Under the pieces are notes generated by a model. It searched no databases and was not told the origin of the DNA. It saw only the letters and a list, made by a program, of their open reading frames with translations. Below, in pieces: positions 60,249-63,684 of a stretch of DNA of 64,000 nt (the stretch's first letter is position 1; every line of letters starts with the position of its first letter). Origin of the DNA: Stenotrophomonas maltophilia. GTDB taxonomy: Bacteria; Pseudomonadota; Gammaproteobacteria; Xanthomonadales; Xanthomonadaceae. The translations under genes and the position numbers were made by a program. Location of the stretch: contig NZ_NIVS01000013.1 of NCBI RefSeq assembly GCF_002205165.1, positions 62,001 to 126,000 on the forward strand, given 5' to 3'.

Positions 60249-61628
60249 TCACCGTCGACAACGCTCGATCAGGCTCAGCAACGGCCCGGTCATGGCCGTG
60301 GTCACCAGCGCCATGATCACCAGGACGGCGAACAGGCGGTCGCCAAGGAAGCCCAGCTCGTAGCCCAGGTTGAGCACGATCAGTTCCATCAGGCCGCGGG
60401 TGTTCATCAGCGCACCCAACCTCCACGCCTCATGGTTGTCCATGCCGGCACTGCGCGCGGCACTCCAGGTGCCGATCAGCTTGCCCAGCGTGGCGACCAC
60501 GATCACGATCAGGCACAGCACCAGGTCGCTGGCCTGCAGGGCGTCGGCGCGCATGCGCAGGCCGGTCATGGCGAAGAACAAGGGCAGCAGCAGCGTGACC
60601 GCGAACGGCTCGACGCGCTCGGCCACGGTGTGCCGCAGCGTCGCGTTGCCGGACACGGCGACGCCAGCCGCGAACGCGCCGAACAGCGCATGGATGCCCA
60701 GCATCTCGGTGACCAGCGCGCAGCCCAGCGCCATCAGCAACATGATCAGCAGCCAGCGTCCTTCCTGGCCAGGTGCGATCACCAGGCGCGAGAACCATGG
60801 GCGCACCACCCCCAGCATCAGTGCGACGAAGGCGACCACGAAGACCAGGTTGATCGTTGCCGGCACCCAGCCCTGCGACTGCGCGGCGGCCACGATCAGC
60901 GCCAGCAGACACCAGGCGGTGGCGTCGCCGAGGGCGGCGCAGGCGATCGCGGTCTGGCCCAGCGGTGTGGCGGTCATGCCGCGGTCGGCAAGGATGCGCA
61001 GCAGCACCGGGAAGGCGGTGATGCTCAATGAAATACCGACGAACAGCGCGAAGCCGGTGAAGCCCACACCGGGCGGTGCGTGCGCGCCATACAGCCAGAT
61101 CGCCAGCAGCACGCCGAGCAGGAAGGGCACGGCGATGCCGGCGTGGCTCACGACGAAGGCGAATCGCCGCCGCCCACGCAGTCCGCCAAGATCCAGTTCC
61201 GCCCCCGCCACCAGCAGGAACATCAGCACCCCGAGCTGGCTGAGCAGGCCGAGCGAGCCGAGGGAAGCGGCCGGGAACAGCGCGCCATGCACCTGGGGCA
61301 GCACGGCCCCAAGCACCAGCGGCCCCATCATCAGACCGGCTGCCATCTCCCCGATCACCCCAGGTTGACCCAGCCGCCGGAACAGCCACCCCGCACCTTT
61401 GGCCACCAGCAGCAGGACCAGCAACTGCAGCAGGAACAGACCCAGCGGCGCATGCAGATGCGCGGCCCAGTCGGCCCCCAGCGACGCCTCGGCACGGGCC
61501 ACCTGTGCCGAGACGGCCGGACCGGCAAACCGTGCCAGGCCCAGGCCGATCAACAGAGGCAGCGCCACCCAGCCCAGATAACGCCAGGCCAGCCCGCTGC
61601 GGCGCGTCCCGGTGGTGTCAGCGTCCAT
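60249..61628 (-). CDS. CPA2-family cation:proton antiporter
   Basis: This is a 459-residue membrane protein with about 12-13 TM helices. Family motifs are GVIGEMAAGLMMGPLVLG, LMFLLVAGAELDL, FVGISLSITAFPVLLRIL, the ion-binding ACAALGDATAW and LNTRGLMELIVLNLG-like MNTRGLMELIVLNLGYELG. It resembles KefB-type and Na+/H+ exchangers without the regulatory RCK/TrkA domain. It is predicted to exchange K+ or Na+ for H+; the ion is not determined. No operon partner is evident. Confidence 0.88.
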   Translation of the reverse strand: MDADTTGTRRSGLAWRYLGWVALPLLIGLGLARFAGPAVSAQVARAEASLGADWAAHLHAPLGLFLLQLLVLLLVAKGAGWLFRRLGQPGVIGEMAAGLMMGPLVLGAVLPQVHGALFPAASLGSLGLLSQLGVLMFLLVAGAELDLGGLRGRRRFAFVVSHAGIAVPFLLGVLLAIWLYGAHAPPGVGFTGFALFVGISLSITAFPVLLRILADRGMTATPLGQTAIACAALGDATAWCLLALIVAAAQSQGWVPATINLVFVVAFVALMLGVVRPWFSRLVIAPGQEGRWLLIMLLMALGCALVTEMLGIHALFGAFAAGVAVSGNATLRHTVAERVEPFAVTLLLPLFFAMTGLRMRADALQASDLVLCLIVIVVATLGKLIGTWSAARSAGMDNHEAWRLGALMNTRGLMELIVLNLGYELGFLGDRLFAVLVIMALVTTAMTGPLLSLIERCRR

Positions 61629-61716
61629 GATCGATCCCCATCGATTGAAGGGGCGATTCTACGGGCTGCACGCGCTGCCACACCACCGCGATCGACGCGG
61701 CGGTGGGGCACATCGA

Positions 61717-63408
61717 TCAGGCCAGTGCCTGCTCGTGCACGCCGGCGATCGCGCGGCCGGACGGATCGGCCATCGCCGCGAAGCTGGCGTCCCACGCGAT
61801 CGCTGCCGGCGAGGAGCATGCAATCGATTTGCCGCCGGGCACCGTCTCCGCCGCCGCCTGGGTCGGGAAGTACTGCTCGAACACGTGACGGTAGAAGTAG
61901 GCTTCCTTGGTCTGCGGCGGGTTGTGCACGAAACGCTTGTCCGCCGCCGCCATCACGCGGTCACTGACCTGGGCCTCGGCATGCGCCTTGAGTCCGTCGA
62001 TCCAGCCGTAGCCGACACCATCACTGAACTGTTCCTTCTGGCGCCACAGGATCGAGTCCGGCAGGTACCCTTCGAACGCTTCGCGCAGGACCGCTTTCTC
62101 AATCCGGCGTGCGCCTGCCGCGCCCTGCCCGACCATCTTGTGCCTGGCATCGATGCGCATGGCAACATCGAGGAACTCGCGGTCCAGGAACGGCACGCGC
62201 GGCTCCACGCCCCAGGCCATCATCGACTTGTTGGCGCGCAGGCAATCGTAGTTGTTGAGCGCGTCGAGCTTGCGCACCAGTTCCTCATGGAACTCACGCG
62301 CGTTCGGTGCCTTGTGGAAGTACAGATAGCCGCCGAAGATCTCGTCGCTGCCCTCACCGGACAGCACCATCTTCACCCCCATCGCCTTGATCCGGCGCGC
62401 CAGCAGGAACATCGGGGTGGAGGCGCGGATCGTGGTGACGTCGTAGGTTTCCACATGGCGGATCACCTCCGGCAACGCATCCAGGCCCTCCTCGAAGGTG
62501 TATTCGAAGCCGTGGTGCACGGTCCCGAGTGCTTCTGCCGCGATGGCGGCGGCGGCCAGATCGGGCGAGCCCTTCAGACCGATCGCAAACGAATGCAGGC
62601 GCGGCCACCAGGCTTCGCTCTGATCACCGTCTTCAACGCGATGGCGGGCATAGCGCGCCGCCACCGCGGCGACCAGCGAGGAGTCCAGGCCGCCAGAGAG
62701 CAGCACGCCGTACGGCACGTCGGTCATCAGCTGGCGGTGCACGGCACGCTCGAAGGCCTCACGCAGCGCGACGCGGTCGGCCTCCACGCCTTCGACCGCG
62801 TCGTACTCGCGCCACGGGCGCTCGTAATAGCGGGTCAGCGTGTCGGTGGCGCTGTCGTACCAGTGGCCTGGCGGGAACTGTGCCGCATCGGCGCAGATGT
62901 CCACCAGCGACTTCAGCTCGGAGGCCACCACCAGGCGGCCATCCTTGTCGTGGCCCCAGTACAGCGGCACCACGCCGATCGGATCACGTGCGATCAACAC
63001 GCGCTGCGCGGCGCGGTCCCACAGCGCGAAGGCGAAAATGCCGTTGAGGCGGTTCAGGAACGAGGCCGGGCTGTCTTCGCGGTACAGGGCGTTGATCACC
63101 TCGCAGTCCGAGCCGGTCTGGAAGGCGTACGGCTGGGCCAGTTCGGCCTTCAGTTCGCGGTGGTTGTAGATCTCGCCGTTGACCGCCAGCGCCAGACCGC
63201 CGTCTTCGGAGAGCAGCGGCTGCGAGCCACCGGCCGGGTCCACGATGGCCAGGCGCTCGTGGACCAGGATGGCACCGTCATCGACATACACCCCGCTCCA
63301 GTCCGGGCCGCGATGGCGCTGGCGCTGCGAGAGGTCCAGCGCATGGCGGCGCAGTGCGGGGAGGTCGTCGCCGGCCTGCAGGCCGAAAATACCGAAGATC
63401 GAACACAT
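61717..63408 (-). CDS. asnB: Asparagine synthase (glutamine-hydrolysing)
   Basis: This is a 563-residue AsnB. The glutaminase domain starts MCSIFGIFG, with Cys2 as nucleophile after Met removal, and has LSQRQRHRGPDWSG and AVNGEIYNH. The synthetase domain has the PP-loop LLSGGLDSSLVAAV and VLSGEGSDEIFGGY. ATG 63408 has AGGAG upstream. It makes Asn from Asp using Gln nitrogen and ATP. The 240-nt leader before it holds an Asn-rich peptide ORF and a terminator/antiterminator pair, so expression is probably controlled by asparaginyl-tRNA charging. Confidence 0.95.
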   Translation of the reverse strand: MCSIFGIFGLQAGDDLPALRRHALDLSQRQRHRGPDWSGVYVDDGAILVHERLAIVDPAGGSQPLLSEDGGLALAVNGEIYNHRELKAELAQPYAFQTGSDCEVINALYREDSPASFLNRLNGIFAFALWDRAAQRVLIARDPIGVVPLYWGHDKDGRLVVASELKSLVDICADAAQFPPGHWYDSATDTLTRYYERPWREYDAVEGVEADRVALREAFERAVHRQLMTDVPYGVLLSGGLDSSLVAAVAARYARHRVEDGDQSEAWWPRLHSFAIGLKGSPDLAAAAIAAEALGTVHHGFEYTFEEGLDALPEVIRHVETYDVTTIRASTPMFLLARRIKAMGVKMVLSGEGSDEIFGGYLYFHKAPNAREFHEELVRKLDALNNYDCLRANKSMMAWGVEPRVPFLDREFLDVAMRIDARHKMVGQGAAGARRIEKAVLREAFEGYLPDSILWRQKEQFSDGVGYGWIDGLKAHAEAQVSDRVMAAADKRFVHNPPQTKEAYFYRHVFEQYFPTQAAAETVPGGKSIACSSPAAIAWDASFAAMADPSGRAIAGVHEQALA

Positions 63409-63494
63409 GGGAACAGCTCCTGATGATGGGGGAATACACGTGTTGCAGGCATTCGACCGGCCACCCAGGCCCGGAAGGGATAAACCCGGGCCAC

Positions 63495-63524
63495 AAAAAA
63501 ACCCGCATCGGTCGATGCGGGTTT
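63495..63524 (-). terminator. Attenuator terminator in the asnB leader
   Basis: On the minus strand the 12-bp complementary arms AAACCCGCATCG and CGATGCGGGTTT (63524-63499), with only a two-base spacer and so a few inner pairs open, run into six T (63500-63495). They lie 87 bp before the asnB ATG, in the same direction, between the leader peptide and asnB. A terminator ahead of its own gene is the signature of attenuation. Confidence 0.88.
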
Positions 63525-63550
63525 TCTGGGGTCCGGGCGTGTTGCTTGTA

Positions 63551-63649
63551 CTAGCCCTGGTCGCAGTCCCGCATCGGCCGCGCACGATTATTCGCGCGCA
63601 GATTATTGCGGTTGGTATTGCTGACAGCGGTGGCCGGGAACGAGGACAT
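63551..63649 (-). CDS. Asn-rich leader peptide of asnB
   Basis: This is a 32-codon ORF (ATG 63649, TAG 63551) upstream of asnB. Asn codons are at positions 11, 13, 15, 16, 20 and 21 (SNTNRNNLRANNR), five of them AAT, in a genome where AAC should dominate. Its stop is 27 bp before the attenuator hairpin. Codons 25-28 (CCG ATG CGG GAC) contain CGATGCGGG, which also forms the 3' arm of the terminator and can pair with its 5' arm. It is a leader peptide whose translation, not its product, matters. No clear Shine-Dalgarno is seen. Confidence 0.8.
   Translation of the reverse strand: MSSFPATAVSNTNRNNLRANNRARPMRDCDQG
63566..63577 (-). promoter_or_regulatory. Antiterminator segment in the asnB leader
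   Basis: Minus-strand CCGATGCGGGAC lies within leader codons 25-28. Its CGATGCGGG is complementary over nine bases to CCCGCATCG in the 5' arm of the terminator. A ribosome stalled at the Asn codons would leave this segment free to pair and block termination. A ribosome reaching the stop would cover it and let the terminator form. Confidence 0.75.
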
Positions 63650-63655
63650 GGACCG

Positions 63656-63684
63656 ACCGTAACCGGCTTTTGGCAGCGGCGCAA
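63656..63684 (-). promoter_or_regulatory. Possible asnB promoter
   Basis: TTGCGC (63684-63679) and TACGGT (63661-63656) are separated by 17 bp on the minus strand. The transcript would start at or very near the leader ATG, so the leader peptide might be translated from a leaderless message, consistent with the missing Shine-Dalgarno. The match to consensus is modest. Confidence 0.35.

Follow-up and report, generated by a model that had tools for sequence, protein, structure and literature searches.

In Stenotrophomonas maltophilia, the asparagine synthase gene asnB is very likely controlled by a ribosome-mediated transcription attenuator that, in the model developed below, would respond to charged tRNA-Asn. 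The stretch of DNA analysed, hereafter the window, comprises 64,000 nucleotides. The parts of the attenuator, their conservation, the pairing alternatives between them and the dependence of these alternatives on ribosome position are all observed by computation.

The regulation can be envisaged as follows. Transcription would begin on or beside the leader AUG, and the leaderless peptide would be translated close behind the RNA polymerase. When asparagine is ample, the ribosome would pass the Asn codons and cover segment 2 of the leader (codons 25-28), whereupon segment 3 would pair with segment 4 and transcription would stop before asnB. When asparagine is scarce, the ribosome would stall on the Asn codons, leaving segment 2 free to pair with segment 3; once this 2:3 pairing has formed, the terminator would be blocked and asnB transcribed. 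On this view, the leader transcript would be made and translated, ribosomes would stall on it, and read-through into asnB would depend on asparagine.

The asnB locus and its leader

The product of the regulated gene matches the NCBIfam profile NF006949 with 866.6 bits, as compared to a cut-off of 499. The features of the locus are collected in Table 1. The 32-codon leader ORF reported in the preliminary description lies upstream of the gene, and its six Asn codons are exactly those that had been listed, namely, five AAT (codons 11, 15, 16, 20 and 21) and one AAC (codon 13). A chance origin of this cluster is ruled out by its uniqueness: among the 1487 segments of the window that run from stop to stop over at least 11 codons in any of the six frames, the leader ORF alone contains a stretch with six Asn in 11 codons. 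A repetitive palindrome was considered as well and rejected, as the leader DNA matches itself alone in the genome, the second match arising from the hairpin read on the other strand. According to the gene layout of the window, the frame 5' of the leader promoter is divergent, so that the hairpin cannot serve to terminate any other gene. The forward strand carries a 603-codon open frame antisense to asnB (61612-63423), which is probably no gene, such frames being typical of GC-rich codon usage.

Table 1. Features of the asnB leader region, in window coordinates
Feature	Position	Strand	Basis
asnB, asparagine synthase B (glutamine-hydrolysing), regulated gene	61717..63408	-	NCBIfam profile match
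Shine-Dalgarno sequence of asnB, AGGAG	63417..63421	-	sequence; SD-like motif common before asnB of relatives
U-tract of the intrinsic terminator, 7 T	63495..63501	-	sequence
Segment 4, GC core of the terminator 3' arm, GATGCGGG	63502..63509	-	sequence and folding
Segment 3, terminator 5' arm, AGAAAACCCGCATC	63514..63527	-	sequence and folding
Leader peptide ORF, 32 codons, MSSFPATAVSNTNRNNLRANNRARPMRDCDQG*	63551..63649	-	Asn-rich counterparts throughout the order
Segment 2, antiterminator half, CCGATGCGGG, codons 25 to 28 (first base)	63568..63577	-	masked folds; conserved pairing in relatives
Asn codon cluster (codons 11, 13, 15, 16, 20, 21), proposed sensor	63587..63619	-	codon reading, six-frame count
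Predicted -10 hexamer TACGGT, 17-nt spacer, 6 nt 5' of leader ATG	63656..63661	-	conservation
Predicted -35 hexamer TTGCGC	63679..63684	-	TTGC conserved at the same distance in both families

Conservation of the arrangement

The asnB genes were gathered from genome contigs, from the genus and from the order, and 120 upstream regions were retrieved. An Asn-rich leader ORF precedes asnB at 172 of the 175 genome loci. Of the other three, two (L248, L249) belong to an outgroup family, and at L187 the leader is situated at a greater distance upstream and was picked up as L260. For the named loci, the count is 39 of 42. A short ORF rich in Asn, with a terminator-like hairpin behind it, is found in Stenotrophomonas, Xanthomonas, Luteimonas, Thermomonas, Lysobacter, Arenimonas, Rhodanobacter, Dyella and other genera, and the combination of leader ORF, hairpin and antiterminator precedes nearly every asnB of the clade, in Xanthomonadaceae, Rhodanobacteraceae and one further family. 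Throughout the order, the parts retain their succession and spacing; the hairpin of the relatives occupies the same place as in the window, with the U-tract interrupted in some of them. The alignment of upstream regions that had been suggested as a check thus shows the Asn-rich ORF, the hairpin and the competing segment to be kept across genus, family and order, with some compensatory changes.

More distant asnB genes (roughly 60-69% identity; Vibrionales, Alteromonadales and other families of Lysobacterales) do not show such an arrangement, L065 possibly excepted, nor was the leader found at the diverged asnB copies (65-68%) of a few Xanthomonadaceae and Rhodanobacteraceae genomes. Hence, the element goes with one clade of asnB. 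In six cases (L264, L265, L266, L268, L272, L274), a diverged asnB of 65-68% identity is the best match of its genome. L065, a more deeply branching asnB of Lysobacterales (69% identity), has a short ORF that contains TNNTN and, behind it, a GCCCGC hairpin; this may be the attenuator in an early or a decayed state. In two genomes of genus g15 (L169 and L187/L260), additional sequence lies between the terminator and asnB, and leader and terminator are a few hundred bases more distant from the gene. The three named loci that lack the Asn leader (L018, L022, L043) carry an asnB 73-81% identical to that of the window; their records are labelled Holophagales, Rhodococcus and Deltaproteobacteria, so that either the gene was transferred without its leader or the contigs are misassigned.

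What is selected in the leader

Codon usage was determined for 196 distinct leaders, over the final 28 codons of each. Asn accounts for 22.9% of leader codons across the family, with AAT and AAC used almost equally (631 and 625, respectively) and only 11 Lys codons (AAA/AAG), while the other two frames contain a median of 0 Asn; the genes of the window contain on average 2.7% Asn, with AAT making up 16% of the Asn codons. The equal use of AAT and AAC, the scarcity of Lys and the Asn-poor other frames indicate that the amino acid, and not the A+T content, has been kept; in particular, the first two features rule out base composition as a substitute for codon selection. Relative to the genes of the window, the leaders make extra use of AAT, the rarer Asn codon.

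These counts bear on the possibility that the AAT and AAC triplets serve as an A-rich RNA spacer without structure, or as a site for protein binding, with regulation exerted by a protein or a ligand and not by translation. A-rich triplets would tend to stay single-stranded, and several leader attenuators are generally known to bind proteins. However, the triplets are in frame and almost exclusively those of Asn, the spacing between them varies, and no Rfam family matches the leader (the leader and five relatives were scanned, at the gathering score). We therefore regard this explanation as very improbable and retain the reading of the triplets by the ribosome.

Terminator and antiterminator

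The preliminary description placed a strong terminator before asnB, and an intrinsic terminator is indeed found 23 bases past the leader ORF and 86 bases short of asnB: the hairpin AGAAAACCCGCATC-GACC-GATGCGGGTTTTTT, together with seven U (63527-63495, reverse strand), has a free energy of -21 kcal/mol when folded alone. The leader as a whole folds with z = -3.45, and no shuffled sequence was equally stable. Segment 2, CCGATGCGGG, duplicates the 3' arm of the terminator and is able to pair with its 5' arm. A nine-base repeat had been noted here at codons 25-27; the repeat exists, and it is one base longer than had been described, reaching the first base of codon 28.

The capacity of segment 2 to pair with arm 3 has been maintained in evolution. 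Over the 196 leaders, the mean energy of the duplex is -15.0 kcal/mol, as compared to -10.2 for shuffled segments, and in 170 of the 196 segment 2 is bound better by its own arm 3 than by the arms of other clades. The CCCGC/GCGGG core of the pairing is nearly invariant, which by itself says little. At one flanking position of the 2:3 pairing, 65 of the 96 distinct sequences can pair against 37 expected from shuffles (a count uncorrected for kinship), and rare compensatory double changes occur among relatives, such as GGCCTGC with GCAGGCC (likewise uncorrected). The outermost pairs are kept in some clades, not in all. In most clades, the antiterminator segment extends from about 14 to 6 nt 5' of the leader stop codon; in Stenotrophomonas, it lies some codons earlier. 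The competition of an antiterminator for the terminator 5' arm, as claimed at the outset, is thus borne out by conserved pairing, by some compensatory changes and by the ribosome-masked folds described below.

It could be argued that the product of the ORF is a functional small protein rich in Asn, the hairpin being the end of its own short mRNA and the promoter of asnB being situated further downstream. The ORF is conserved, as this explanation demands, and a short mRNA with its end at the hairpin would give this picture. Yet the peptides differ widely from clade to clade outside the Asn cluster, sharing little besides this cluster and the amino acids that segment 2 specifies; furthermore, the 3' part of the ORF tracks the terminator arm, and the order and spacing of the parts are kept throughout the order. 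A small protein thus appears very unlikely, and an attenuator remains the preferred interpretation.

Dependence on the position of the ribosome

The choice between the two structures was modelled by folding the transcript through segment 3 with the footprint of the ribosome masked, the model being simplified with respect to both the footprint and the assumption of equilibrium folding. In the leader of the window, the probability of segment 3 pairing with segment 2 is 0.8-0.9 as long as the ribosome has not moved beyond the last Asn codon, with 0.89 on the Asn codons; it is 0.75 when the ribosome is one codon further, about 0.3 two codons further and about 0.05 at most of the positions beyond. 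The trpL leader of E. coli, used as a positive control in the same model, shows high values near the Trp codons and low ones at the stop codon, as known for this system. Thus, in silico, the choice of structure follows the position of the ribosome at the sensed codons, and the folding check proposed earlier, run with the ribosome masked, puts the switch beside the last Asn codon.

Over the 196 leaders, the mean probability of the antiterminator falls from about 0.72 to about 0.33 within three codons of the last Asn, and this drop is almost gone upon shuffling of segment 2. A switch threshold of 0.2 is passed by 125 of the 196 real leaders versus 42 of the 196 shuffled controls. Individual leaders vary, and for 23 of the 196 relatives this simple folding model yields no positive switch.

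In the ribosome-free transcript, the antiterminator is preferred to the terminator, with a probability of 0.83-0.89 for the sequence of the window and a mean of 0.68 over the relatives. No strong protector (1:2) hairpin was found by folding the leaders of the window and of its relatives; the sole 1:2 alternative in the window is a weak 5-bp CCGCA/UGCGG helix that appears when the ribosome is on the stop codon. The model is therefore two-state, a passing ribosome freeing the terminator by covering segment 2, and gives no account of termination without translation. It is conceivable, with somewhat less than even probability, that the entire order employs a protector-free two-state attenuator whose leaderless leader is loaded with a ribosome as the RNA emerges, and that only a moving ribosome permits the terminator to form. 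In that case, either a shortage of asparagine or a failure of translation to start would turn on asnB.

Direct sensing of tRNA-Asn or of asparagine by the leader RNA, via a T-box or a riboswitch, deserves mention because asn genes are generally known to be under T-boxes in some Firmicutes. In the present case, Rfam yields no T-box or riboswitch match to the leader at the gathering score, only about 120 nt, mostly coding, separate the predicted start from the terminator, and the 2:3 pairing involves the leader ORF itself. Such sensing would be the least probable of all the explanations considered, and sensing through translation of the leader is to be preferred.

Promoter and start of the leader

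A scan for consensus sigma-70 sites yielded no promoter, the cut-off being too strict for TTGCGC/TACGGT, and conservation was used instead. In both main families, TTGC and a TAnnnT-like element keep a fixed distance to the leader ATG. The strict promoter-ATG arrangement is found in 93 of 193 leaders, whereas upstream DNA after shuffling shows it at 0.09% per ATG. The spacer is 17-18 nt long, 6-7 nt separate the -10 element from the ATG, and C occupies position -1 in 91%; this spacing places the predicted transcription start on the A of the ATG or one or two bases away from it. A Shine-Dalgarno sequence was not found at the leader ATG of the window; an SD-like motif precedes the leader ATG in 2 of 93 cases versus 176 of 196 for the ATG of asnB. 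Taken together, the conserved promoter spacing and the missing Shine-Dalgarno sequence suggest that the leader is probably leaderless, so that the possibility raised in the preliminary description holds as a prediction.

Asparagine physiology

The genome encodes an asparaginyl-tRNA synthetase (AsnRS), and neither GatB nor AsnA was found in it; accordingly, the charging of tRNA-Asn should report free asparagine. Among synthetases of the AsnA and AsnB kinds, asnB is the only one clearly found in this genome. Judging from what is known of the pathway, free asparagine, which is made by AsnB when none is supplied, should set the charging of tRNA-Asn, and feedback on asnB would be sensible. An Asn leader was also looked for at asnS of the same genome, and none was found; in a genome-wide search for a second Asn leader, the pattern AAYAAY-N9-AAYAAY occurs 4 times versus 3 for the reversed control.

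Relation to known systems

The classic examples of such attenuators, as noted at the outset, do not include Asn. Searches of the full-text literature yielded no description of an Asn leader peptide, and the surveys of attenuators that were consulted report none, although a prior prediction in subscription papers is possible. If the proposed attenuator is real, asparagine joins the amino acids that are sensed via ribosome-mediated attenuation, and the regulation of asnB would be accounted for throughout Stenotrophomonas, Xanthomonas, Lysobacter, Rhodanobacter, Dyella and their kin. The approximately 200 natural variants would also make a good test bed for the coupling of leaderless translation to attenuation and for the need for a protector hairpin.

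Comparative prediction of a leader peptide, a terminator and an antiterminator has been applied to classical attenuators of Actinobacteria, for Trp, Cys and Leu (PMC1262725), and to the His leaders of hisS/hisZ in bacilli (PMC2965389). The asnB leader was predicted likewise; the amino acids sensed in those systems, however, do not include asparagine, no Asn case being found in either paper. As described in the review PMC9031893 (citing Canestrari et al. 2020), the polycysteine short ORFs of mycobacteria resemble the asnB leader in being leaderless attenuators that contain a stretch of the sensed amino acid and precede metabolic genes; they differ in that they sense cysteine, belong to Actinobacteria and control the downstream genes translationally, whereas the asnB leader has an intrinsic transcription terminator.

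A close resemblance exists to the trp/his type of Proteobacteria (trpL, hisL, thrL, ilvL, leuL, pheL), with which the asnB leader shares a peptide rich in the regulated amino acid, an intrinsic terminator, a mutually exclusive antiterminator and the decision by ribosome position; the trpL leader of E. coli and the asnB leader behave in the same way in the masked-folding model. The initial assignment to this type holds as to the parts and their order, and fails as to the full four-segment design, in that the strong protector hairpin is lacking. Unlike the trp/his type, the asnB leader senses Asn, is predicted to be leaderless and has segment 2 inside the leader ORF, where the advancing ribosome masks it. 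Thus, the sensing of an amino acid by leader translation is of a known kind, and the use of Asn together with a predicted leaderless, protector-free layout is a variant of it.
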